DNA from: a bacterium
Lineage (GTDB): Bacteria; Patescibacteriota; Patescibacteriia; JAGPKW01
Assembly: GCA_021780535.1 (NCBI GenBank)
Contig: JAJXYN010000007.1
Coordinates: 1-50,054 of the forward strand
DNA length: 50,054 bases
Direction of reading: 5' to 3'
Shown here: positions 201 to 19,055 of the stretch, one piece after another
Layout of the letters: the number at the start of each line of letters is the position of its first letter
Numbering within the stretch: the first letter of the stretch is position 1
The notes under the pieces: model-generated
Databases searched by the model: none
The model's input: the letters and a program-made list of their open reading frames with translations, nothing else
What the model was told of the DNA's origin: nothing
Translations under genes and position numbers: made by a program

Positions 201-1052
201 TTAGGGTTGCCAATCCCAGAGAAAATCCTCCGACACAAGAATAAGAAAATCGGAAGAAGTTCTGTAGAGTGAATAAAGTTCTTTTTTCTTATCCCCAAAA
301 ACGAAAGCAATACCAAGAGGATAAAGATAATCATTTTTGAATGCTTTCGTGATTTTTACCGTAATATCCATAGTCTTATCAAGTGTGGCAAGCAAAACCT
401 TCTCCAACTTCTGTCCACTGTGAGACTCCATGAAGTCACCAACGGGATGGCCGATCTTAAAGATCTTGACGATCATCTTCGGTGTTGCAACGAGGTTGTT
501 CTGGTTGTTCTGACCATATCGGATGATCGGAATACCAGTGTCGTAGCTTCCGGGATCTTGGTTATTGGCGACCTCAAAGTCAGCTTGGCTAACTTTACGA
601 AAAGGCTGATCAAATTCATCCTTGCTATCGGGTCTACCTTTGTTGTTTTCAAGGATTCTATTGTCATAGATAATCCCAATGTAAGTGCCCTTGGTGTCAT
701 ATTTTGCATCAAGAGAGAAAATAACTCCCTTCACGGTCGGAGCAGATTTGTCAAAGTTGAGTTTATAAAAATCCGAATCAAACTCAACCATTCCATTGCT
801 CTGACTGCTCAAGGAAAATTCTTCGACTCTCGAAGCAATCGGAGCCTTGATAACGGGAACGCCGTTATCATAGACATTCATCTCCGACATGTCCACGGGG
901 TAGAGCTGCCAGACGTTTTTGTTGAATTCAGCCTTATTTGGCCAGAATTTTTGAAGTTCCGTCTGCAAGTCTCTCGGCGTGCTCTGGGCAAAGATGGTCA
1001 AGGATGTGACCATCAACATCACTATGATCGTAAAAAGACGTCCAACCTTCAT
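201..1052 (-). CDS. Secreted protein of unknown function (283 aa)
   Basis: I do not recognise the family. The N-terminus is a clear signal peptide: MKVGR, a hydrophobic stretch, then a probable cleavage near IFAQS. The rest is soluble and rich in beta-type alternation, with no cysteines and no catalytic motif I can name. I chose the ATG at 1052 because a perfect GGAGG lies 8 nt before it; an in-frame TTG five codons upstream sits inside that SD and is unlikely. A TTGACA/TATTTT promoter precedes the gene and a strong hairpin terminator follows, so it is monocistronic. Base composition is clearly richer in G+C than the flanking housekeeping genes, which suggests acquisition or a distinct expression class. 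It is probably exported to the cell surface or medium. Confidence 0.8.
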   Translation of the reverse strand: MKVGRLFTIIVMLMVTSLTIFAQSTPRDLQTELQKFWPNKAEFNKNVWQLYPVDMSEMNVYDNGVPVIKAPIASRVEEFSLSSQSNGMVEFDSDFYKLNFDKSAPTVKGVIFSLDAKYDTKGTYIGIIYDNRILENNKGRPDSKDEFDQPFRKVSQADFEVANNQDPGSYDTGIPIIRYGQNNQNNLVATPKMIVKIFKIGHPVGDFMESHSGQKLEKVLLATLDKTMDITVKITKAFKNDYLYPLGIAFVFGDKKKELYSLYRTSSDFLILVSEDFLWDWQP

Positions 1053-1084
1053 GTGTCTTACCTCCAAAAAGAATTTGTATTTTT

Positions 1085-1113
1085 AAAATACACTTTTTTA
1101 GTAGGAATGTCAA
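1085..1113 (-). promoter_or_regulatory. Sigma-70-type promoter of the 201-1052 gene
   Basis: TTGACA (1113-1108) and TATTTT (1090-1085) are separated by 17 nt. The -10 region and its upstream flank (14 nt, aaaatacacttttt on plus) are identical to those of the promoter of the neighbouring gene at 1454, so the two genes may be co-regulated. Confidence 0.8.
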
Positions 1114-1130
1114 TAATATTTAGTACAAAT

Positions 1131-1157
1131 AAAAAACCGAGCGAATAATCCACTCGG
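1131..1157 (-). terminator. Terminator of the coiled-coil gene
   Basis: CCGAGTG and CGCTCGG form a 7-bp stem with a 7-nt loop. It is followed on minus by TTTTTT, and sits just past the stop codon at 1164. Confidence 0.9.
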
Positions 1158-1163
1158 TACAGA

Positions 1164-1454
1164 TCAAAGATCCACCCCAGTTTGTTTCTTAGCAAGATCT
1201 ATAATATCTTGATCAGAAAGATCTGGGTTTTTCGCCCTAAGACTAAGAAGATCCTTAGCAGAAATAGACTTTTTTCCATTGAGTTGTTCAATTTCGTTTG
1301 ACAACTTAGCAATTTCATCTTGCAATGCTTGATTTGAATCTTGCAATGCTTGATTCGAGTCCTTAAAACCTTGTAAGGTTTTATCGAAAGAATCTTGAAC
1401 AGGTTTCATTCTTTTATCAACAATACCCATTACAAGATCATCAAGTTCACTCAT
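1164..1454 (-). CDS. Small coiled-coil protein (96 aa)
   Basis: This unrecognised protein begins MSELDD. The middle is a predicted coiled coil that includes a short tandem repeat (DSNQALQ twice) and a Leu/Ile heptad run (IAKLSNEIEQL). It ends in a basic-acidic tail with a possible small helical domain (residues ~70-96). The ATG at 1454 is chosen because GGAGG lies 7 nt upstream; further in-frame starts up to 1562 overlap the promoter -10 and cannot be used if that promoter is real. The 5' leader begins with a perfect 10-bp hairpin (1501-1527). The gene has its own promoter and terminator. The tail resembles general oligomerising regions, so function cannot be inferred. Confidence 0.75.
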   Translation of the reverse strand: MSELDDLVMGIVDKRMKPVQDSFDKTLQGFKDSNQALQDSNQALQDEIAKLSNEIEQLNGKKSISAKDLLSLRAKNPDLSDQDIIDLAKKQTGVDL

Positions 1455-1500
1455 TCTCATTCCTCCATTTATAAGATTAGAAAGCTCTATATCTTTCTCT

Positions 1501-1527
1501 GGAAACTTTTGTTTTAAAAAAGTTTCC
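1501..1527 (-). promoter_or_regulatory. 5'-UTR hairpin at the transcript start
   Basis: GGAAACTTTT and AAAAGTTTCC pair perfectly (10 bp, 7-nt loop). The hairpin starts about 7 nt after the -10 box, so it should form the very 5' end of the mRNA. That is the usual position of a stabilising 5' stem. Confidence 0.6.
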
Positions 1528-1533
1528 ATTTTC

Positions 1534-1562
1534 AAAATACACTTTTTGTGTTCAAATATCAA
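1534..1562 (-). promoter_or_regulatory. Promoter of the coiled-coil gene
   Basis: TTGATA (1562-1557), a 17-nt spacer, then TATTTT (1539-1534). The downstream half matches the promoter at 1085-1113. Confidence 0.75.
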
Positions 1563-1569
1563 TGATAAC

Positions 1570-1597
1570 TTGCTTTTTTTTTAAAATGTGTTATTAT
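1570..1597 (+). promoter_or_regulatory. Promoter of the candidate small RNA
   Basis: TTGCTT (1570-1575), a 16-nt spacer, then TATTAT (1592-1597) on the plus strand. It is followed within 10 nt by the structured RNA. It is divergent from the coiled-coil gene promoter. Confidence 0.5.
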
Positions 1598-1603
1598 AGT
1601 ATT

Positions 1604-1722
1604 AAGGCTTGGTGGCGAAAAGCGGACCTCCTTGAAGCGCCTGATGTCCTCCTTTCCAAAGTTCAAACCACCAAGTCGGGTTGCGGTGTCGTACGTCGTA
1701 CACATCGCAACCCTCTTTTTTT
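1604..1722 (+). ncRNA. Candidate small RNA with two anti-Shine-Dalgarno motifs
   Basis: This plus-strand unit of ~118 nt lies between two minus-strand genes and has a promoter and a strong terminator of its own. A closing stem (GGCUUGGUGG at 1606 with CCACCAAGUC at 1668) encloses ~50 nt. Within it, CCUCCUU occurs twice, at 1627-1633 and 1648-1654; the second sits in GAUGUCCUCCUUUCCAAAG, which resembles the 3' end of 16S rRNA. It is much richer in G+C than its surroundings. It does not match the SRP, 6S, tmRNA or RNase P signatures I know. Function as an SD-directed antisense RNA is inference. Confidence 0.5.
1678..1722 (+). terminator. Terminator of the candidate small RNA
   Basis: GGGTTGCG..TGT (1678) pairs with ACA..CGCAACCC (ending 1713) as a long GC-rich stem, followed by CTCTTTTTTT. 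The T-run exists only on the plus strand, so the terminated transcript runs left to right. Confidence 0.85.
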
Positions 1723-3214
1723 ATTTTCTTGATTTAGGAGTAACCCAAAACCCCATATATTTACCTATCATAAGTCTCATATAAGCATCAATAGCTGGGA
1801 TAGATCCTAGTAATATAGTAATAAAAGGTAATAAAACCCATTCACCAAACAATAATATATATTTATAAAATTTAACTTTTTCTTTTGTTTTAGGTAATAA
1901 AAGAAAAGAAATAAAAGCATTTATAATCATACCAAGCATACCAATTCTCATAACCGTTTGTAATATAAAAGGAGCATTTCTAACTATTATAGATTGAGAT
2001 AAATTAGTAATATTAACAACAATCAAGGGAATAAAACCAAAGAAAAACATAACAATAGGAGCAGTAGCCCAAGTTATACCACCTTCCAATTGATTAAAAA
2101 TATAATAAAATTTAATATTAAAAGGTATTTTTTTATTTTTAAGCCACTCAGTCATAAGATAAGGAAAATTTTCCATACCATAAGCCCACCTTCTTTGTTG
2201 TTTGTATTGGTTTATAACGCTCTTAATAAAATTCTTTTCATCAACAACGTCAAGAGATACTGGTATATAAACAGGTAATACTTTATAATCTCCGTTATAA
2301 TAATTAACACATTGAAGACCAATCCTAGAATCTTCCGACACAACATCATTATTCCAAAAACCAACATCAACAAGAGCTTTAAAATTCATAGAATGAGATG
2401 AAAAAGTAAATAGTTTATCCTTTTTCATAAAATCAGAAAGCAACCAAAAAGTAGTACCACGAGCAACAAGTCTGTTTGTTGATGTGGCTTCCCAAAAATT
2501 ATTATTAAATATAGCAATAGGCTGATAACTAGTTCTGGTAGGATTATTAATAGTTAAGTGTAAATAAGACAAATGAGCAAAATATTGTTCATGAACAATA
2601 GTATCAATATCAAAATTAGAAACTATAATATTCTCATAAGGGATCTCAGGAAATTCAGCATCTAAAACCTTTTTAATATATTTACCAGCATAATTACAAT
2701 TAGATCCCTTACCTTGTACTTCGCCTTCTTGTAGATAATGAACCGTATAAATAAATTTTAAAAATTTACTTCCATATTTTTTTTCTATAATTTTTGCTTT
2801 TAAAATAAAAGCTTCTCCCTCTACACCTTCTCCAGCAAGAACAATAATCATCTTACTTAGATCATAAAAAGTATTAGACAATTTCAAAAGAGATGCTTCT
2901 ATAACCTCAATAGGTTCTCTCAGTGTAGGCAATAAAATCAAATGATAAACATTTTTCCAACTATCATTTTTTTCAGTTTTTAATTTAAAGAACCAATCTA
3001 TTGCAACTGTTTTTTTAAATTTATTCCAAGAAGCAACCAAATGTATTTCCATATAAATGACTTTGAAAAGCCACAATATATCATAAATTATAATAAAATA
3101 GATAACAAAAATAGGACTTATAAAAGTGAAAGCAAACAAAAACAAAAAAATAAATATAACAAGAGCGCCAGGTATAATTTCAAAAATTCTATATTTAAAA
3201 TCTCTTTCTATCAT
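1721..3214 (-). CDS. Membrane glycosyltransferase, family 2
   Basis: The protein has 497 aa with two membrane segments at the N-terminus (residues ~12-50), a cytoplasmic GT-A domain, and three to four hydrophobic segments at the C-terminus (~380-475). Family signatures are visible: a DxD-type metal site in SNFDIDT, the acidic SEDSR, and QQRRW near residue ~340, which matches the Q(Q/R)xRW signature of cellulose-synthase-like processive enzymes. It probably adds sugars from an activated donor to a lipid or a growing surface polysaccharide at the inner membrane. The gene follows a PspC-domain gene by 9 bp on the same strand. The substrate is not readable from sequence. Confidence 0.85.
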   Translation of the reverse strand: MIERDFKYRIFEIIPGALVIFIFLFLFAFTFISPIFVIYFIIIYDILWLFKVIYMEIHLVASWNKFKKTVAIDWFFKLKTEKNDSWKNVYHLILLPTLREPIEVIEASLLKLSNTFYDLSKMIIVLAGEGVEGEAFILKAKIIEKKYGSKFLKFIYTVHYLQEGEVQGKGSNCNYAGKYIKKVLDAEFPEIPYENIIVSNFDIDTIVHEQYFAHLSYLHLTINNPTRTSYQPIAIFNNNFWEATSTNRLVARGTTFWLLSDFMKKDKLFTFSSHSMNFKALVDVGFWNNDVVSEDSRIGLQCVNYYNGDYKVLPVYIPVSLDVVDEKNFIKSVINQYKQQRRWAYGMENFPYLMTEWLKNKKIPFNIKFYYIFNQLEGGITWATAPIVMFFFGFIPLIVVNITNLSQSIIVRNAPFILQTVMRIGMLGMIINAFISFLLLPKTKEKVKFYKYILLFGEWVLLPFITILLGSIPAIDAYMRLMIGKYMGFWVTPKSRK

Positions 3215-3223
3215 ATAAAACTA

Positions 3224-3655
3224 TTACTTATTTTTTTTAAATATTAAAATAAGACCAACAACAATCAATATAACCGGCCATATTCTAGAAAGATTTAAAT
3301 AATAAAATATATGAAAAAAATTATTCAATAAAAATAAAACTCCAACAACAATAATAATAACAGCAAATAAACTAGAATTATTTTTTTTAGTTATAATTTT
3401 AAAAATATCACCTTCTTTATCCATATCAAAAATCCTAGAGCCATCATTATTATTTTCTCTTTTAATGTTTTGTGAATCAGAATAAGGCAAAAATGCCCAC
3501 AAAAAAATATATACAATTACACCTATTCCAAAAATACTGAATATAACAAAAACAAGTCTAACTATATTTGAATCTACATTAAAATATTCACCAATACCAC
3601 CACAAACACCAGCAATTAGTGCATCATTTTTTGATCTACAAAATTTTTTATCCAT
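3224..3655 (-). CDS. PspC-domain membrane protein
   Basis: 143 aa. The N-terminal ~60 residues are a PspC domain (LIAGVCGGIGEYFNVD, then the hydrophobic segment ending FLWAFLPYSD). A charged linker and two further hydrophobic segments follow (~93-115 and ~122-140, ending SRIWPVILIVVGL), as in LiaF/DUF5668-type membrane modules. PspC domains act in envelope-stress sensing in other bacteria; the role here is inferred only from the domain. It lies 2 bp downstream of the small membrane protein gene at 3658-3903 and 9 bp upstream of the glycosyltransferase, so the three probably form one transcript. Confidence 0.85.
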   Translation of the reverse strand: MDKKFCRSKNDALIAGVCGGIGEYFNVDSNIVRLVFVIFSIFGIGVIVYIFLWAFLPYSDSQNIKRENNNDGSRIFDMDKEGDIFKIITKKNNSSLFAVIIIVVGVLFLLNNFFHIFYYLNLSRIWPVILIVVGLILIFKKNK

Positions 3656-3657
3656 AT

Positions 3658-3903
3658 TTATTTATTGTTTGACTTATAAAATTCAACAACATCTACAAAC
3701 TTACCATTTATCTTACATTGTTTCAACTTTTTTCCATCAGAATCAGAGGTTTCTCTATATTCATTACCATTTTCTGTACAATATTGAATAGCACGCTTCT
3801 CAACATTTTCTGGTTTATTGTAATCTATAGAAATAAAAATATTAATAATAAAAATCAAAACAATAGATGAAATTAAAAATAATAATAAATTTCTTTTAGA
3901 CAT
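3658..3903 (-). CDS. Small single-pass membrane protein
   Basis: 81 aa, not recognised. It has one N-terminal membrane segment (residues ~6-27) followed by a short polar domain with two cysteines (IQYCTENG and LKQCKI) that could pair outside the membrane. No SD precedes its ATG, as for most genes here. It begins the short PspC/glycosyltransferase operon. Confidence 0.65.
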   Translation of the reverse strand: MSKRNLLLFLISSIVLIFIINIFISIDYNKPENVEKRAIQYCTENGNEYRETSDSDGKKLKQCKINGKFVDVVEFYKSNNK

Positions 3904-3935
3904 AAAAAGATTTTAATCTTTAGTTATTATACATT

Positions 3936-3966
3936 AAAAAAGACTACCAGCCAAAGGCTAGTAGTC
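3936..3966 (-). terminator. Terminator of the Pro-rich secreted protein gene
   Basis: GACTACTAGCC and GGCTGGTAGTC (11-bp stem, 3-nt loop) are followed on minus by TTTTTT. It lies 17 bp beyond the stop at 3983. Confidence 0.92.
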
Positions 3967-3982
3967 AAGGAAGAAAGAGAAA

Positions 3983-4261
3983 TTACTTTTGTCCTCTTTC
4001 TTCCTTCTCGCGAGAATCACAGTCGCGGCCATTTCCTCGAAGATCGTGGTGTTTGCCACGATTCTCAAGACCATAGCCATGGCCAACTTTCTCCTTGTGT
4101 TCGCCATAGCCATTGCCATTGCCATTATCATGGCAAACAACAACAGGTGACGGAGTAGGAGTCGGGGGCGGCGGAGTGATTGTCGGAGACGGAGGGGTGA
4201 TTGCAAACGAACCCACAGAAAGTGCAAGTCCGATCGCAACAAAGATAACAACCCTCTTCAT
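3983..4261 (-). CDS. Secreted Pro-rich / Gly-His-Lys-rich small protein
   Basis: 92 aa. A signal peptide (MKRVVIFVAIGLALSVGSFA) is followed by a Pro/Thr-rich segment (PPSPTITPPPPTPTPSP). The tail is highly charged and rich in Gly, Asn, His and Lys, with two cysteines. I do not recognise a family; the composition suggests an extended surface or cell-wall-associated polypeptide, possibly metal binding through the histidines. AGGAGG precedes the ATG by 7 nt. A promoter and terminator frame it as one gene. G+C is well above that of neighbouring genes. An overlapping ORF in another frame is its shadow. Confidence 0.7.
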   Translation of the reverse strand: MKRVVIFVAIGLALSVGSFAITPPSPTITPPPPTPTPSPVVVCHDNGNGNGYGEHKEKVGHGYGLENRGKHHDLRGNGRDCDSREKEERGQK

Positions 4262-4283
4262 CCAAACCTCCTAATATGAATTT

Positions 4284-4299
4284 ACATTCTTACGAATGT
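4284..4299 (-). promoter_or_regulatory. Small leader hairpin with GTAA tetraloop
   Basis: On minus, ACATTC-GTAA-GAATGT forms a 6-bp stem capped by a GNRA-type loop between the promoter and the SD of the 4261 gene. Confidence 0.4.
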
Positions 4300-4308
4300 A
4301 TGAAACAT

Positions 4309-4337
4309 ATTATAACACATTTTTTTATTGCACAAAA
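4309..4337 (-). promoter_or_regulatory. Promoter of the Pro-rich secreted protein gene
   Basis: The -10 is TATAAT (4314-4309). TTTTGT (4337-4332) lies at 17-nt spacing, or alternatively TTGTGC at 15-nt spacing. Confidence 0.65.
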
Positions 4338-4414
4338 TAATTACAAAACAAATAACACAATAACTAGAATAGTTCTACAAATACCAAAAAAACAAAATTA
4401 TATTTTTAATATAA

Positions 4415-5005
4415 TTAAAGTCCAATTTCAGTTGCAATTCCTTGCATAGAAATTAAACAAATTTCGATAAATTTCTCTAATGATAAGTCTAAACCATCTG
4501 AATTTGCACACAAAGCAATTTCGTCACGTCTAGTACCAGCGGCAAATTTAGGTTCTTTTAAAAATCTTTTCAAAACGGAGGATACTTTAACTTCTGATAA
4601 TTTTTTTGATGGATAAACATATGCCACTGCACTAATCAAACCCATCAAACTATCTGCACAAAAAATAGACCACTCCGCTTTATTGTGTGGCTGTTTACCA
4701 GTTAAACTTGGGGCGTGAGATTTTATTATATCATGCACTGTTTCAGAAAGTTCTAATCCATATTTATCAAAAACAATTTTTGTCATATTCGGGTGAAATT
4801 CTTTATATTCGCCAGAATAATCAATATCATGAGTTAATCCAGCAATTTTCCATTCTTCAAGCAAAGGTTCGTCTATATTCAATTTATTTTCTGTTTTAAA
4901 ATAATTATAAAGTCCTTCCATGCAAGCCTCAAGCGCAAGTGAATGCGTAAATATTTTTGGTTCTACTTGCATCTTTACAGCTTCAAGGTATTTTATTCGT
5001 TCCAT
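4415..5005 (-). CDS. HD-domain phosphohydrolase
   Basis: 196 aa. The metal-binding pattern of the HD superfamily is present in order: His in FTHSLAL (~21), the HD pair in LTHDIDY (~58), His in IKSHAPS (~92), and Asp in FCADSL (~114). This layout is typical of HDIG-type hydrolases that cleave nucleotide or other phosphate esters. The substrate cannot be assigned. It is a stand-alone gene between the Pro-rich protein and the kinase gene, with 67 bp separating it from the kinase stop codon. Confidence 0.8.
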   Translation of the reverse strand: MERIKYLEAVKMQVEPKIFTHSLALEACMEGLYNYFKTENKLNIDEPLLEEWKIAGLTHDIDYSGEYKEFHPNMTKIVFDKYGLELSETVHDIIKSHAPSLTGKQPHNKAEWSIFCADSLMGLISAVAYVYPSKKLSEVKVSSVLKRFLKEPKFAAGTRRDEIALCANSDGLDLSLEKFIEICLISMQGIATEIGL

Positions 5006-5072
5006 ACTAATTTATTATTTACTATTTTATTATTATCATAATACTATAAATCATAAATTATATAAAATAAAA

Positions 5073-6374
5073 TTAAAAAAATATTTTTATTTCTGTTCCA
5101 AATTTTTTCTTAGTATAAACATCTGCATTAATTTTATTCTCTATCAAAAAAGATTTAACAAATTCCATTCCATAGCCAAGACCTTCGTTTTTAGTAGTAT
5201 TACCAATTTTGAAAAAATCACAATCAATCAAAGATTTAGAAAAAAGTTCATCTTCTTTAACAAAAGCAATCCCCGTACCATTATCTTTTATAGAAACATA
5301 TTTACTATCACCAGTATTACAAATTTCTATATCTATTCTCTTATTTTGATCTAAATTCTTTAAATTATCATAAGAATTTTTAATAATATTTTCAATAACA
5401 AAACAAAAATTCATAGGGCTACCTTTAAAATAAATATCTGCACCGTATTGTTTAATTGTTAAATTAATATTTTTTTTAAATTCTAAATTAGATTTAAAAA
5501 ACTCAACAATAGATTTAATGGTTTTATTAATATTAATAGTTTCAAAATCTTCTTTATGTCTGTTTTTTGTAGAATACATAAGCTTATCAAGTAACCCAGA
5601 TAAACCATCAACAGATTTAATCTGAGTTTTGCAAAAATCTCTTGTTTCTTCATCTATTCTTTCATCATTAGAAAATTCTTCAAGAAGAAGATAAACAGGA
5701 GTAAGTTTATTCTTAATATTATGAATAACACCAAGAACATTTCTGCCATACCAGGCATCACCTTCACTTTTATAGAGAGCAATTTGGAGTTTATCAGATT
5801 TTTCTAAATAAATTCTCACTTCATCAATTAAGGCAAGCCACAAAATTGACATAAATAAAAATAAAAACAACAAAGCAGGAACCAAATGGAATATTAGTCT
5901 AATAGATAAATTTATTATATGAGGAGAATAATTTGAAAAATTAATATATTTATACAAATATGCATCAAGAAAATTTATGGATAAAATTCTAATAAAAAAT
6001 AAAATAATAACAGTAAGTGTTAATACAAAAAATGTTCTAGATGGTTTTAATTTATTCTTATAATAAAACCATATTAATAAAATAGAATATCCCAGCAAAA
6101 TCAAAGAGCTAACATCTTCTGGATTTTTATTTACTATAGAAGTATACAAAGCACAAAGAAGCAATCCTATAATTTGCAATATTTTAGAAAAATTATAAGG
6201 AATAAAAAAAGCTAACAAAAAAACAATAGAAACAAAAAAAGAAAAAATAACATTAAACAATGTTGAATTGTAGAAATTTCCTAAATTATAAAAAATTAAT
6301 AAAATCAAATTCAAAAAACACAAAGCCAACATTGGCAAAGATAAAATCAAAGCAATTTTCTTATACTTTAACAT
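5073..6374 (-). CDS. Six-pass membrane sensor histidine kinase
   Basis: 433 aa. Six membrane segments (about 7-30, 39-60, 65-82, 90-105, 113-135, 160-183) with almost no extracytoplasmic domain lead into a kinase core. The core has the phospho-accepting His218 in GVIHNIKNKLTP, an N-box (VIENIIKNSYDN, ~326-337), G1 DNGTGI (364-369) and G2 GLGYG (398-402). Such polytopic input domains are common in kinases that sense peptides or the membrane (AgrC- and ComP-like). It is the last gene of the locus regulator - 203-aa protein - tiny peptide - kinase. A hairpin separates it from the peptide ORF and may tune its expression. The ligand assignment is inference. Confidence 0.88.
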   Translation of the reverse strand: MLKYKKIALILSLPMLALCFLNLILLIFYNLGNFYNSTLFNVIFSFFVSIVFLLAFFIPYNFSKILQIIGLLLCALYTSIVNKNPEDVSSLILLGYSILLIWFYYKNKLKPSRTFFVLTLTVIILFFIRILSINFLDAYLYKYINFSNYSPHIINLSIRLIFHLVPALLFLFLFMSILWLALIDEVRIYLEKSDKLQIALYKSEGDAWYGRNVLGVIHNIKNKLTPVYLLLEEFSNDERIDEETRDFCKTQIKSVDGLSGLLDKLMYSTKNRHKEDFETININKTIKSIVEFFKSNLEFKKNINLTIKQYGADIYFKGSPMNFCFVIENIIKNSYDNLKNLDQNKRIDIEICNTGDSKYVSIKDNGTGIAFVKEDELFSKSLIDCDFFKIGNTTKNEGLGYGMEFVKSFLIENKINADVYTKKKFGTEIKIFF

Positions 6375-6393
6375 AAATAAAACATATAAACTT

Positions 6394-6426
6394 AACCAAT
6401 AAAATTAATAAATAATTTTATTGGTT
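6394..6426 (-). promoter_or_regulatory. Hairpin between the peptide ORF and the kinase gene
   Basis: AACCAATAAAATTA and TAATTTTATTGGTT pair over 14 bp with a 5-nt loop. There is no T-run, so it is more likely an mRNA stability or processing element, or a weak attenuator. Confidence 0.5.
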
Positions 6427-6437
6427 AAATAAGTTAG

Positions 6438-6500
6438 TTAATTAAACCACCAACCTTGCACTACAAGAATATCATTCAATTTTTTAATTTTTTTAGACAT
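6438..6500 (-). CDS. Possible signal peptide ORF with C-terminal Trp-Trp (20 aa)
   Basis: The ORF reads MSKKIKKLNDILVVQGWWFN. It begins 3 bp after the stop codon of the 203-aa gene; an in-frame ATG at 6506 overlaps that stop (ATGA), giving 22 aa. AAAGG lies 9 nt before the ATG at 6500. The peptide is basic at the N-terminus and ends in a hydrophobic, aromatic tail (VVQGWWFN). It lies between an uncharacterised gene and a six-pass histidine kinase, with a response regulator upstream. That order recalls comQ-comX-comP-comA and agr-type loci. The ORF is short enough to arise by chance, and whether it is expressed is unknown. Confidence 0.35.
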   Translation of the reverse strand: MSKKIKKLNDILVVQGWWFN

Positions 6501-12530: not shown

Positions 12531-14450
12531 TTATTTAACAACTTTATTAATACTCATAATAGGATTCAAATCAACAGAAAAATCTTTATTTAATGTAGTA
12601 TCTCTATATATAACATTAGTGTTTAAAGTCAATCCAATAGTTTTCCCGATAAATTTACTATTAGGAGTAACATTTACATAAAATTTACCAACAACATCCT
12701 TTTCAAACGCGGCAATATCTCCTATAACCCAACTAATTTTTTTAGAAATCGGATCGTAATCAAGTTTAGTAGATTTTGAAAGAATAGAGTCAGAAGAATA
12801 ACTAACACCATCAGGCAAAGTAAAATAAACAGCAACGCCGGAAAGATTATTATAATTATTATACAAATTAAAATCCAATTCTAAAGGAGAAGATACAACC
12901 CCACTCTTCAAATTAACTTTAGCAGATGATGTTTTTATAGACAAATCACTATCCAAAATTAATTTAAATATTTTATTATCAACCAAAGTCATTTCATCAT
13001 TGGAACCATTTTTGCCAAACAAAGTTATCTTAACATTAGAATAATATCCACCATCTTTAAATTTTGTTAATAAATCTTTCTTAAAAGATAATGTCATATC
13101 CAACTCTTTTTCAACATCAGAAACATCTTTAAACCCAGCATTATTATCTTTATTCCATTCTACTATCAAATCAGATGATCCATTATTAACAGTATTGGTA
13201 AATTTTGGGGCAGAGCTAAAATTTATTTTCGGGTTAATAATATCATCTCCCAAAAATTCAACAACCAGTCTCAAATCTTTAAAAGATAAGTCTTTATTCG
13301 TTTTACTATACTTAAATGATATTTTATAAGGGTTATTAACATTAGCAGAAGCAATTCTATTAACGCCATCATCAACAATATCTGAAGACGTATTAATAGA
13401 AAAATTCAACCCAGAAATTGATGTCCTTATAGTATCATCTTTAGAAAACATCGAATCTACATTATCTAAGTTGCTCATATCAACAACAATACCTGCAGAT
13501 ATATTCAAGTTAACTTCACTAATATTATCAGAACTTACAACCCCAGTTAAAGTAATAACTTTTTCATAATAATCATCAACAGAGGGGTCGGTTTTGTTTT
13601 CTTGTTTTTTATTTAGATCAAAAATCCAATAAACCTGTTCCCCTTTATATACTTTTGTCGGATCTTCACTGTATTTATTAATTTGAAAATAATCAGGATA
13701 TTTAAAAGTTAATTTAACATTTTTTAAAGCTTTAGGGCTATTATTTTTAATTTTAATTTTATAAGATATTTCTTTATCTTTATAAAAAATATCACTTCTT
13801 TCAATAACAATATCAAAAACAGGCTTAGTAATAGTAACTTTATAAGAATTATTACTAGAAAAAGAAGAAGAAATAGATTCAAAATTATAATTCATAGTTG
13901 CAGATAAAATACTATCAACACCAACAGACCCAAATAAAGAACCTCTCAAAGTAACTTTCTTTTCTTCTCCAGGATTCAAAATATCAAATTTCCATTTAGC
14001 ATATTCATCATTTACAAGATATGGTTCTGTATCTGATGAAATATATGAAAATTCAGAAGGGAATCTAGCGGAAAGTTCTATATTTTTCATCTTATAGTTT
14101 TCAGTATTTTTAAAGGACAAAGAATACTCAATTTGACCATCACTACCAACACCAAGAGGGCTATTTATGTTTATAACAATTCTATTTGAATAATCAGCAG
14201 AAACAACATTAGTATCAACGGTTTTATTAAATTTAACAAAGCCAATAAATAAAACAACAATAGACACTAACAAAATAATAATAAGAGATAAAAGCACTTT
14301 TTTAAACAAACTAGATTTTTTTAAATCCAAAGTTTTATCTTTATCAGAATCAAAAATATTCTCGACAACCTTCCTGTGCTCAGTCTTAAGAATATCATTT
14401 AAAGCTTCTTCATTATTTCCATCTTTTTTTTCTTCATTATTTTCAAACAT
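12531..14450 (-). CDS. Large membrane-anchored surface protein with repeated beta domains
   Basis: 639 aa. An acidic cytoplasmic N-terminus (~1-50) is followed by one membrane segment (~51-70) and a long extracellular part. The latter is made of several Ig-like/DUF11-like beta modules; recurrent phrases such as EYSLSFKNTENYKMKNIELSARFP and SYKIKIKNNSPKALKNVKLTFKYP share the pattern of a polar strand followed by N-V-x-L-x-F-x-Y-P. This resembles the DUF11/CARDB class of adhesin-like stalks. It probably forms a cell-surface fibre. No enzymatic motif is seen. An AT-rich inverted repeat lies just upstream. The C-terminus lacks an LPxTG motif. Confidence 0.75.
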   Translation of the reverse strand: MFENNEEKKDGNNEEALNDILKTEHRKVVENIFDSDKDKTLDLKKSSLFKKVLLSLIIILLVSIVVLFIGFVKFNKTVDTNVVSADYSNRIVININSPLGVGSDGQIEYSLSFKNTENYKMKNIELSARFPSEFSYISSDTEPYLVNDEYAKWKFDILNPGEEKKVTLRGSLFGSVGVDSILSATMNYNFESISSSFSSNNSYKVTITKPVFDIVIERSDIFYKDKEISYKIKIKNNSPKALKNVKLTFKYPDYFQINKYSEDPTKVYKGEQVYWIFDLNKKQENKTDPSVDDYYEKVITLTGVVSSDNISEVNLNISAGIVVDMSNLDNVDSMFSKDDTIRTSISGLNFSINTSSDIVDDGVNRIASANVNNPYKISFKYSKTNKDLSFKDLRLVVEFLGDDIINPKINFSSAPKFTNTVNNGSSDLIVEWNKDNNAGFKDVSDVEKELDMTLSFKKDLLTKFKDGGYYSNVKITLFGKNGSNDEMTLVDNKIFKLILDSDLSIKTSSAKVNLKSGVVSSPLELDFNLYNNYNNLSGVAVYFTLPDGVSYSSDSILSKSTKLDYDPISKKISWVIGDIAAFEKDVVGKFYVNVTPNSKFIGKTIGLTLNTNVIYRDTTLNKDFSVDLNPIMSINKVVK

Positions 14451-15281: not shown

Positions 15282-18200
15282 TCATTCAATTTCAATAAAT
15301 AACTTATTACCATCTATTTCAATTTCTTTTCCATTATTAGAAACAAATAGAATCTCATTAGCAACAACATTATTTAAAATAAATTTTTCATTATTTTCAA
15401 CAGCTTTTTTAATATTATTTTCTTCAGAAAAATATTTAATATTTATTTTATCAGAAAGTGTTAAGTTTTTTTCAGATCTCAAATCATTAATAATAGAAAT
15501 AAATTCACGAGCCAATCCTTCAAGTTTCAAACTTTCAGTTATTTCAGTATTTAAAGCTATAACAATACCATGGTCAGAAGCAACATCAATTCCGTCTTTA
15601 CCAATATAAGCAACTTCACAATCAGATAATTCTATTCTCCATTTAGAATCAACAACAACTATATCACCTTCTAACTCAAAATTTCCAGATTTTGCCTCAT
15701 TTATAATATTTTGTACATCTTTACCAAACTCAGGACCAAGAACTCTAGCATTAGGTTTTAATTGCATTTTAGAAATATCTTCAGTTTTAGAAACAAATTC
15801 AATTTCTTTAATATTAAGTTCAGAGCAAATAATGTTTTTATTATTTAAAACAATACTTTTTTGAACATCATTAGCAACAATAGTAATATTATTCAAAGGT
15901 TGACGAGTAACAATATTTTTTTGTTTTCTAATAGAAAGACCAAGACTTATCACATCACGAGCAAAAGAAATTTCTGATAGCAATTCTTTATTAATTAATT
16001 TTGTATTAGCAATAGGAAAATTTTCCAAATGAACAGATTCTAAGCTATTATCTATTTCTTTGTATAAATACTCAGATATAAAAGGTGTAACGGGAGCCAT
16101 TATCTTAGATAAATTAGATAAGACGTACCTTAAAACAGATAAAGCTAAAGCTTTATCATTTCCCATTTTTAATCTAGACCTATTAATTCTCACATACCAA
16201 TTAGATAAATCATCAATAAAACCATCTATTAAACGAGTTCCTTCAGCTAAATAATATCCATCCCAATTTTCAGATACTCCTTTTATAAATTCATTCAATC
16301 TAGCAATAATCCACTTATCAGAATTATTTTCCAATATATCAAAATTTTGTATTGATGCGATATTTTTTGCTCCTCCGGCCATTTTATAAAAATCTAAAAC
16401 ATTAATTATTTTCAAAATAATTTTTCTAACGACTTCTTCAACGCCTTTTTCATAAAAATTCAAATCTTGCAAAGATACAACTGGAGAAGATAAAAGATAA
16501 TATCTTAAAGCATCAGCTCCATATTTTTGCAATACAATATTTGGATCAGGATAATTTTTAAGCTTCTTGCTCATTTTTTGACCATCTTCAGCAAGTACAA
16601 TGCCGTTAACTACAACATTCTTAAATGCTGGTTTATCAAACAATGCCGTACCTAAAACAACTAAAGTATAAAACCAACCCCTCGTCTGATCCTGCCCTTC
16701 AGCAATAAATTCAGCGGGGAAAGTATTCTCAAATTTTTCTTTATTTGAAAAAGGATAACCTAATTGAGCATAAGGCATAGAACCACTTTCAAACCAACAA
16801 TCAAAAACTTCAGGTATTCTTTTCATATCACCACCACATTCAGGACAACTAAAACTTATTTCATCAACAATATGTTTATGGAGATCAAACTCTTTTTTTG
16901 TTGTATTATCAATAAAAACAGTAGAATAACCAAAACTATTCCCATCAACCATATATAAATATTTTTCAATATTCCAACCTCTTAAAACACTGTCTATCAT
17001 GTTTTTTAACCCATCATGAGTAACAATTAAAATTTTTTTTCCTTTATATTGATCCAAAGAATTAATAAATTTTCTAACTCTGATTTCAAGATCTGCAAAA
17101 GATTCTCCACTATCACCTTTCTTATAACTATATCTATCACTGCCAGATAATTTTTTATATTTCTTAATTTCCTCTTTAATTTCAATAGAAATATCTTCAC
17201 CTTCCCAACAACCTTTATTCATTTCTCTTAATTCTTCAACGATAATCAATTCTTTTTTTGCTTTTTTGTTCAAAATTTCTGCTGTCTGTCTTGCTCTTAG
17301 CACAGGTGAACACAAAACAATATCAAAATCATCACCTATTTCATTAGATATTTTTCCTACATTATTTTCTCCATTTAAAGTTAATGGGTATCCATCATTT
17401 CCAGACCATTCTATTCCTTTAATATTTTTTTCGCTTTCACCATGTCTTGCAACTATTATTTTTGTAATTCTGTCATTTCCATCTCTATTCAACTCTTTTT
17501 GCAAATCTTCAACGCCACCAATAACTTTTATGTTTTTGCAGTTATCCCCATGACATCTCCAAATAGGAAGTGGCGAACCCCAAAATCTAGAACGAGAAAC
17601 AGCCCAATCAATACTATTTTCAAGCCATTTACCAAATCTACCATCTTTAACATTTTCCGGCACCCAATGAATCTTCTGGTTGTTTGCTATTAATTTTGTT
17701 TTAATTTCTTCAACTTTAACAAACCAAGAACTTGTAGCATAATTAAGTAATGGTGTATCACATCTCCAACAATGAGGATAAGAATGTTTATGTTTTTCTT
17801 TAGAAAACAACTTATCATTATCCATAAGCCACTTAACAATTTTTACATCCATCAAACTAGAATCTTCTTTTGGTTTTACTTGTCCATCTCCAAAATCTTT
17901 TGCAACAGTAGAAATAAAAGAACCACTCATTTTAACATGTTGTATAAATGGCAATTTAAATTGCTTACCAAGATTCATATCATCAAGACCAAAAGCAGGT
18001 GCAATGTGTACTATACCAGTACCTTCCTCGGTTGTAACAAAGTCAGCAGAATAAATTTTCCAACCATTTTCTTTATTTTTTATATTTTCATCATTCACAA
18101 AATAAGAAAACACGGGTTTATAAGACAATCCTATTAATTCTTTACCAAAAAAAACTTTTATCCGGAAAGTAACATGACCAGAATCAATCATAGATATTCC

Positions 18201-19055
18201 AGCATCTGCCCAATCATCAATACCAATTCCAGTGTTTTCTGCATAACCCATACCTTTTAATTTTTCTTCAAAAAAGTCATTAGATGCTATATAAGTACAT
18301 CCAGCTTTAAATTCTTTATAATCATTATTAAATTTAATCTTTTTATAAAGAATATCATTACCGATAGCCAATGCCACATTCCCTGGTAATGTCCATGGAG
18401 TAGTAGTCCAAGCTAATATAAAAGTATTAGGTTCATCAACCAATTCAAATTTCACCGTAGCAGTCAAATCCGTAATATCTTTATAACCTTGAGTAACTTC
18501 AAAATTAGATAAAGTCGTTTCACATCTTGGACAAATTTGCATAGCCTTATAACCCTCATAGATTAAATCTTTATCCCAAAGAGATTTAAAGACCCACCAA
18601 GTTGATTGCATAAATTCTGGGTTCATAGTTCTGTAATCATTGTCCATATCAACCCATCTACCAATTTTTGGAATGAATTCTTTCCAATCATCAGCATATC
18701 TCAAAACAGAATTACGACAAGCCTCATTAAATTTACCAACACCAAAATCTTCAATATCTTTTTTCGTATTAAAACCTAACTCTTTTTCAATTAAATTCTC
18801 AACTGGAAGGCCATGACAATCCCAACCCCAACGTCTTTCAACTTTATAACCTTTCATAGTCATATATCTTGGAACCATATCTTTAATAGCAGAAGCCACG
18901 ATATGTCCATAATGAGGCAAACCAGTAGCAAAAGGAGGACCATCATAAAAAGAATAATCCCCTTTTGGAGCATCTTTCTTTATAGATTTTTTAAAAATAT
19001 TATTTTCATTCCAAAAATCTAGAATATTTTTTTCATTTTCAGCAATATTAAACAT
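15282..19055 (-). CDS. ileS: Isoleucyl-tRNA synthetase with inserted histidine-phosphatase domain
   Basis: 1257 aa, about 200 longer than usual. Class I signatures are present: HIGH as PHYGH (47-51), KMSKK (~826-830), editing-domain phrases (WTTTPWTLPGN, GTGIVHIAPAFG) and a C-terminal anticodon-binding domain. Between GGVEDLQKEL (~525) and DLHKHIVDEISF (~724), where normal IleRS has only a short connection, lies a complete histidine-phosphatase domain. It has RHGES at 537-541, CSPVLRARQTAEIL, ELREMNKGCWEGE, GESFADLEIRVRKF and the second catalytic His in VTHDG (~680). The phosphatase residues look intact; its substrate is unknown. The gene charges tRNA-Ile, whose GAT isoacceptor is also in the window. 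It has no SD. A repeat element separates it from recO. Confidence 0.95.
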   Translation of the reverse strand: MFNIAENEKNILDFWNENNIFKKSIKKDAPKGDYSFYDGPPFATGLPHYGHIVASAIKDMVPRYMTMKGYKVERRWGWDCHGLPVENLIEKELGFNTKKDIEDFGVGKFNEACRNSVLRYADDWKEFIPKIGRWVDMDNDYRTMNPEFMQSTWWVFKSLWDKDLIYEGYKAMQICPRCETTLSNFEVTQGYKDITDLTATVKFELVDEPNTFILAWTTTPWTLPGNVALAIGNDILYKKIKFNNDYKEFKAGCTYIASNDFFEEKLKGMGYAENTGIGIDDWADAGISMIDSGHVTFRIKVFFGKELIGLSYKPVFSYFVNDENIKNKENGWKIYSADFVTTEEGTGIVHIAPAFGLDDMNLGKQFKLPFIQHVKMSGSFISTVAKDFGDGQVKPKEDSSLMDVKIVKWLMDNDKLFSKEKHKHSYPHCWRCDTPLLNYATSSWFVKVEEIKTKLIANNQKIHWVPENVKDGRFGKWLENSIDWAVSRSRFWGSPLPIWRCHGDNCKNIKVIGGVEDLQKELNRDGNDRITKIIVARHGESEKNIKGIEWSGNDGYPLTLNGENNVGKISNEIGDDFDIVLCSPVLRARQTAEILNKKAKKELIIVEELREMNKGCWEGEDISIEIKEEIKKYKKLSGSDRYSYKKGDSGESFADLEIRVRKFINSLDQYKGKKILIVTHDGLKNMIDSVLRGWNIEKYLYMVDGNSFGYSTVFIDNTTKKEFDLHKHIVDEISFSCPECGGDMKRIPEVFDCWFESGSMPYAQLGYPFSNKEKFENTFPAEFIAEGQDQTRGWFYTLVVLGTALFDKPAFKNVVVNGIVLAEDGQKMSKKLKNYPDPNIVLQKYGADALRYYLLSSPVVSLQDLNFYEKGVEEVVRKIILKIINVLDFYKMAGGAKNIASIQNFDILENNSDKWIIARLNEFIKGVSENWDGYYLAEGTRLIDGFIDDLSNWYVRINRSRLKMGNDKALALSVLRYVLSNLSKIMAPVTPFISEYLYKEIDNSLESVHLENFPIANTKLINKELLSEISFARDVISLGLSIRKQKNIVTRQPLNNITIVANDVQKSIVLNNKNIICSELNIKEIEFVSKTEDISKMQLKPNARVLGPEFGKDVQNIINEAKSGNFELEGDIVVVDSKWRIELSDCEVAYIGKDGIDVASDHGIVIALNTEITESLKLEGLAREFISIINDLRSEKNLTLSDKINIKYFSEENNIKKAVENNEKFILNNVVANEILFVSNNGKEIEIDGNKLFIEIE

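Follow-up and report, generated by a model that had tools for sequence, protein, structure and literature searches.

A histidine phosphatase nested in isoleucyl-tRNA synthetase of Patescibacteria

Essential enzymes under tight constraint seldom carry inserted domains. Why does the isoleucyl-tRNA synthetase (IleRS) of a patescibacterium carry a histidine phosphatase (HP) in its interior, and does the inserted enzyme work together with the one that carries it? The gene in question, ileS, lies at positions 15282-19055 on the minus strand of the window, as we call the whole 50,054-nucleotide stretch of DNA analysed, which belongs to an 860 kb genome that is 91% complete and has its named-collection relatives among the Patescibacteria. 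It encodes a type-2, eukaryote-like IleRS of 1257 residues with the HP nested in it. All features located below are on the same strand and numbered along the window.

The synthetase body and the nested domain

An earlier note, made from the letters of the window alone, had proposed a histidine phosphatase inside an IleRS, and profile searches bear this out. The Pfam family His_Phos_1 (PF00300) matches residues 533-699 with 106 bits against a cut-off of 21.7, far above chance, within an open reading frame that scores 460 bits on tRNA-synt_1, and the NCBIfam model TIGR00392 (ileS) gives 840 bits against a cut-off of 621, which places the protein in the IleRS family. The three synthetase motifs described there as intact are found at residues 47-51 (PHYGH, the HIGH-type motif, 18903-18917, nearly invariant in the IleRS alignment), 216-226 (WTTTPWTLPGN of the CP1 region, 18378-18410, identified by sequence and alignment) and 827-831 (KMSKK, the KMSKS-type motif, 16563-16577, likewise). 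The class I core that carries the HIGH and KMSKS motifs aligns with yeast IleRS at a model Z of 46, the EVFDCWFESG signature is present, and the anticodon-binding domain (PF08264, residues 913-1055, 15891-16319) is followed by a C-terminal DUF5915 domain (PF19302, residues 1074-1257, 15285-15836). Judged by its sequence, the window protein is as an IleRS an ordinary type-2-like enzyme and is predicted to charge tRNA-Ile.

Alignment with insert-free IleRS delimits the whole insert to residues 525-721 approximately (16893-17483), between VIGGVEDL and DLHKHIVDE, a position that we call site A. The insert also lies between two cysteine pairs and splits their knuckle: C501/C506 (17538-17555) precedes it, with cysteine in column 506 in 62 of 88 sequences, and C737/C740 (16836-16847) follows it, with cysteine in 64 and 69 of 88. 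Such knuckles of IleRS bind zinc, and this one is a putative zinc site. The HP domain proper, of branch 1, spans residues 532-700 or so (16956-17462) and possesses the full catalytic set: R537-H538 of the RHG motif with the phospho-accepting histidine (17442-17447), the phosphate-pocket arginine R587 (17295-17297), the acid E611 (17223-17225) and the second histidine H680 (17016-17018). RHGES (537-541), the SPxxRAxQTA motif (583-592) and the second histidine in THDG, which is H680, are thus where the earlier note had seen them. Its acidic site, EGEDISIE, is a misassignment; the conserved acid is E611 in EELREM, which is Glu in 86 and Asp in two of the 88 insert-bearing IleRS. R537, H538, R587, E651, R659 and H680 are invariant in all 88.

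Loss of catalytic residues in homologous inserts had been named as an observation that would speak against a working enzyme, and the residues are retained. All catalytic residues are kept in 89 of the 91 IleRS copies assigned to site A (the first HP of locus L115, counted among them, sits at another site, B, on closer reading), in all seven copies labelled other IleRS sites and in 12 of 13 HP copies of valyl-tRNA synthetase (ValRS); a catalytic residue is absent in two IleRS copies (L123 and L129) and one ValRS copy (L126). In close pairs with unsaturated synonymous sites the dN/dS of the HP is about 0.03-0.15, comparable with that of the IleRS body. Divergence of the HP outpaces that of the body yet correlates with it (r = 0.65 over 3403 pairs). 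One relative in the window's own family shares 60% identity in the HP and 66% in the body; another shares 64% in the body but 26% in the HP, which suggests either faster change or replacement of the domain. Two contigs of one Nomurabacteria MAG (L040 and L041), which share little body sequence, show an HP pS of 0.69 against a body pS of 0.19, a pattern that would fit an exchange of the HP segment. A degenerate or purely structural insert is unlikely, given the catalytic set and the low dN/dS, and the insert is very likely to have HP activity, as far as its residues can predict it.

An AlphaFold2 model of residues 1-1075, built from 61 sequences, has a mean pLDDT of 90.4 and a pTM of 0.88, with low confidence in the link past the HP (residues 704-707). 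Modelled alone, the insert adopts the standard histidine phosphatase fold (pLDDT 93.9) and aligns with the solved HPs 4ij6, 4ij5, 1h2e and 6e4b at Z of about 21-22 (4ij6: Z 22.4, rmsd 2.5 over 187 residues). The closest structures are PSP1, PhoE and CobC. The window HP scores 88.5 bits on the CobC alpha-ribazole phosphatase model TIGR03162 (equivalog cut-off 162.9), 70.8 bits on dPGM_arch NF038349 (equivalog cut-off 225) and 44.2 and 43.1 bits on the phosphoserine phosphatase 1 models NF009994 and NF045917 (cut-offs 277 and 350). Its sequence is that of an ordinary branch-1 phosphatase that falls below the cut-off of every single functional subfamily tested.

These scores bear on two proposals for what the domain does. 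Were the HP to dephosphorylate the synthetase itself or a partner protein, at phospho-His, -Ser or -Thr, and so control charging, tethering it to its target would be sensible, and protein phosphatases, SixA for one, do belong to the HP superfamily. The best sequence and structure matches, however, are the small-molecule enzymes PSP1, PhoE and CobC rather than SixA, and we consider such regulation improbable. A supply of phosphoglycerate mutase activity missing from the cell is suggested by the membership of dPGM in the HP superfamily and by a PGK gene within the window. The CobC phosphatase model nevertheless outscores the dPGM models on the window HP, and an iPGM-sized PF01676 metalloenzyme occurs in G000 and in most of the tested genomes whose only HP is the nested one; a role as mutase substitute is accordingly very hard to credit.

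Occurrence, insertion sites and gene neighbourhood

The architecture is not peculiar to the window. It is shared with two genomes of the same family and with more than 80 other loci, and both insert junctions recur on many independent contigs and genomes, which rules out the assembly chimera that had been raised as a possible artefact. It extends beyond what the earlier note described: of 379 Patescibacteria genomes drawn evenly, at least 57 (counted by hand among the rows listed) gave full-length matches in long open reading frames to a profile of the insert plus its flanks, and so have the HP at site A. Among 145 evenly sampled genomes, IleRS reading frames were located 133 times; 25 of them are at least 1100 aa long and 21 of these 25 carry an HP, which is by far the commonest large IleRS insert in that sample. 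None of 58 Bdellovibrionota genomes, taken as a negative control, has a nested HP in IleRS, the matches there being to the flanks only and the HP matches being separate reading frames. In a scan of 84,980 species genomes no full-length relative among the best 80 matches is clearly of another phylum, all of them coming from records of Patescibacteria type or ones titled just 'bacterium'. One genome (G025) appears to hold two IleRS genes, on C53 and C35: an insert-free one of 1002 aa and one of 1127 aa at a contig edge.

From the flanks of each HP we read at least four insertion sites in IleRS, with up to three HPs per enzyme. In addition to site A, the site of the window, HPs are found just past DLHKHxVDEI (site B, in a lineage where A occurs as well), between the catalytic core and the anticodon-binding domain (site C) and past DCWFESG...HYPF (site D); the IleRS of L115 has three, at B, D and C. 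HPs are nested in ValRS too. They lie between WYGHRIPVWY and QDxDTLDTWFSS, in L120 as two in tandem; L116 and L117 have theirs at the D position. Among the matches listed, IleRS and ValRS are the only proteins with nested HPs. In the HP tree nested and standalone HPs are mixed, with moderate support and no single nested clade. The tree leaves the number of captures unfixed; the different positions alone already call for separate insertions. On the tree of the IleRS body the state of site A requires 12 changes, at least nine of them forced by well-supported branches, and these changes may be gains or losses. Since many relatives have an IleRS with no HP and the state has changed at least nine times, the HP is dispensable for aminoacylation as such. 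The stretch past the second histidine varies among nested HPs, and this variation, together with the want of a single nested clade, makes one shared substrate doubtful.

HPs also occur as genes in the surroundings of ileS. Four standalone HPs stand out by their similarity to the insert (over 140 bits), and three of the four sit just upstream of ileS: L135 and L136 have argS-HP-ileS-recO with overlapping reading frames, and L138 has argS-HP-HD-ileS, with a small HD-domain gene at L138:7042-7548. The fourth, L137, lies away from ileS. Similarity and gene order together suggest that a neighbouring HP gene may have been either a source of the insert or a product of its release. Of the 66 insert-bearing loci whose sequence reaches far enough, 34 have argS upstream of ileS; recO comes next after ileS in many, the window included, where a recO-like gene (PF11967, 14544-15134, in the same order in relatives) is directly downstream. 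Between it and the tgt gene, at 12531-14450, the window encodes a DUF11-containing protein of 639 aa.

Replacement of a lost free HP by the nested one finds no support in the gene counts: by hand count, standalone HPs are present in about 35 of the 57 HP-IleRS genomes versus roughly two thirds of the others. As standalone HPs are about equally frequent in the two groups and most of the tested genomes have an iPGM-type enzyme, neither relocation alone nor substitution for a mutase accounts for the nested HP.

Carrier or partner

The strong rival to any functional pairing is that an unrelated phosphatase has lodged in permissive loops. IleRS and ValRS would then have class Ia loops that tolerate captured small enzymes, mostly HPs, and the HP would be an independent housekeeping phosphatase whose position has a bearing only on expression or gene packing. 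Other enzymes are indeed occasionally nested in these synthetases. The ValRS of L118 (G261:C13, reading frame 827-4657) contains a HAD-like domain (residues 229-342) and a serine hydrolase (PF06821, 631-772) as well as an HP (819-1002), and the IleRS of L119 (G082:C25, reading frame 2138-6490), from the same genome as the tandem-HP ValRS of L120, contains a GNAT domain (666-764) ahead of KMSKS and an HP ahead of the anticodon domain. Site A itself also receives other inserts, of unassigned type, in L156-L158 and L161. Presence of the HP is patchy, different sites hold differing HP lineages, and Patescibacteria also have HPs fused end to end (L175, L176, L177, L130, L131, L179 and L133) to unrelated proteins: PGDH-like dehydrogenase, Nudix, a VTT/DedA-type membrane protein and an MFS transporter. 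Against this, other nested domains are rare beside the HP share of long IleRS given above, nesting is confined to two synthetases among the matches listed, standalone HPs adjoin ileS, and the similar frequency of standalone HPs in genomes with and without a nested one argues against simple replacement of a free gene. We regard a permissive carrier as a serious possibility, if somewhat short of an even chance.

In L156-L158, all of family f52, the site-A insert is conserved and about 136 aa long; it matched no Pfam family and its profile has no similarity to HP. The idea that it is a divergent HP finds no support (hhalign probability 0.1%, although from a profile of just three rows).

The reading we prefer, with a probability of roughly one half, is that synthetase and phosphatase form one bifunctional enzyme, the HP acting on small phosphates at the side of IleRS. 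The HP would fold autonomously in an exposed loop of the CxxC-type knuckle, with the editing region on one side and the KMSKS loop on the other. By the chemistry of its family, H538 would take the phosphoryl group while R537, R587 and H680 hold the phosphate and E611 donates a proton, and water would then free phosphate from a small phosphomonoester. Because HPs have been recruited repeatedly to IleRS and ValRS and in some lineages a separate HP gene stands beside ileS instead, we infer that the phosphatase is of use to the cell through a connection with the synthetase; the recurrent pairing and the neighbouring genes favour such a functional link. The likeliest local substrate class would be a small phosphomonoester made by aminoacylation or disturbing it, with AMP as the first candidate. 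The two options of the earlier note, removal of a by-product or signal at the synthetase and carriage by a permissive loop, both survive; residue conservation and recurrent junctions uphold its observation.

A broader form of the bifunctional reading holds that branched-chain aminoacylation requires a phosphatase step, hence the repeated IleRS- and ValRS-phosphatases of Patescibacteria; it might, for example, clear nucleotide or inhibitory phosphate around these heavily editing synthetases. We put this forward tentatively and think it less likely than not. If true, it would add to synthetase biology a layer that has not been described before, one arrived at by convergence, through insertion at several sites as well as through operon pairing.

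Comparison with known systems

A search of the open-access literature yielded no description of a histidine phosphatase carried by IleRS or ValRS, and we found no NCBIfam model for one. Each part is ordinary of its kind, and what is new is their combination; the HPs of ValRS, the four or more IleRS sites and the standalone HPs upstream of ileS are additions to the earlier note. The same fold is nested at several sites of two sister synthetases within one phylum, under strong purifying selection. Were the HP coupled to aminoacylation, it would reveal a missing translation reaction in a large, hardly cultivated branch of bacteria; were it uncoupled, IleRS and ValRS would supply a natural list of permissive sites at which fusion enzymes could be built.

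The closest known systems resemble the window protein in part. Over about 800-830 residues the whole body of the window IleRS aligns with solved IleRS2 enzymes (P. megaterium 8c8v, yeast 8wnd/7d5c and T. thermophilus 1ile) at Z 41-46 and 40-43% identity, with the same motifs, but these have no HP, whereas between the cysteine pairs of the window protein there are about 190 additional residues. PSP1, PhoE and CobC have the fold and the full catalytic set in common with the window HP at 21-27% identity, but they are standalone enzymes and the window HP is nested in an aminoacyl-tRNA synthetase. The NCBIfam family ileS_w_GNAT (NF040702) is, like the window protein, an IleRS plus an extra small enzyme domain, but the enzyme it carries is a different one, and the window protein scores 283 bits on its model against a cut-off of 1999. 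In the RNase H-acid phosphatase PRK07238 and in Nudix-HP proteins an HP is physically joined to another enzyme, as it is here, but those are end-to-end fusions, whereas the HP of the window is a nested insertion.
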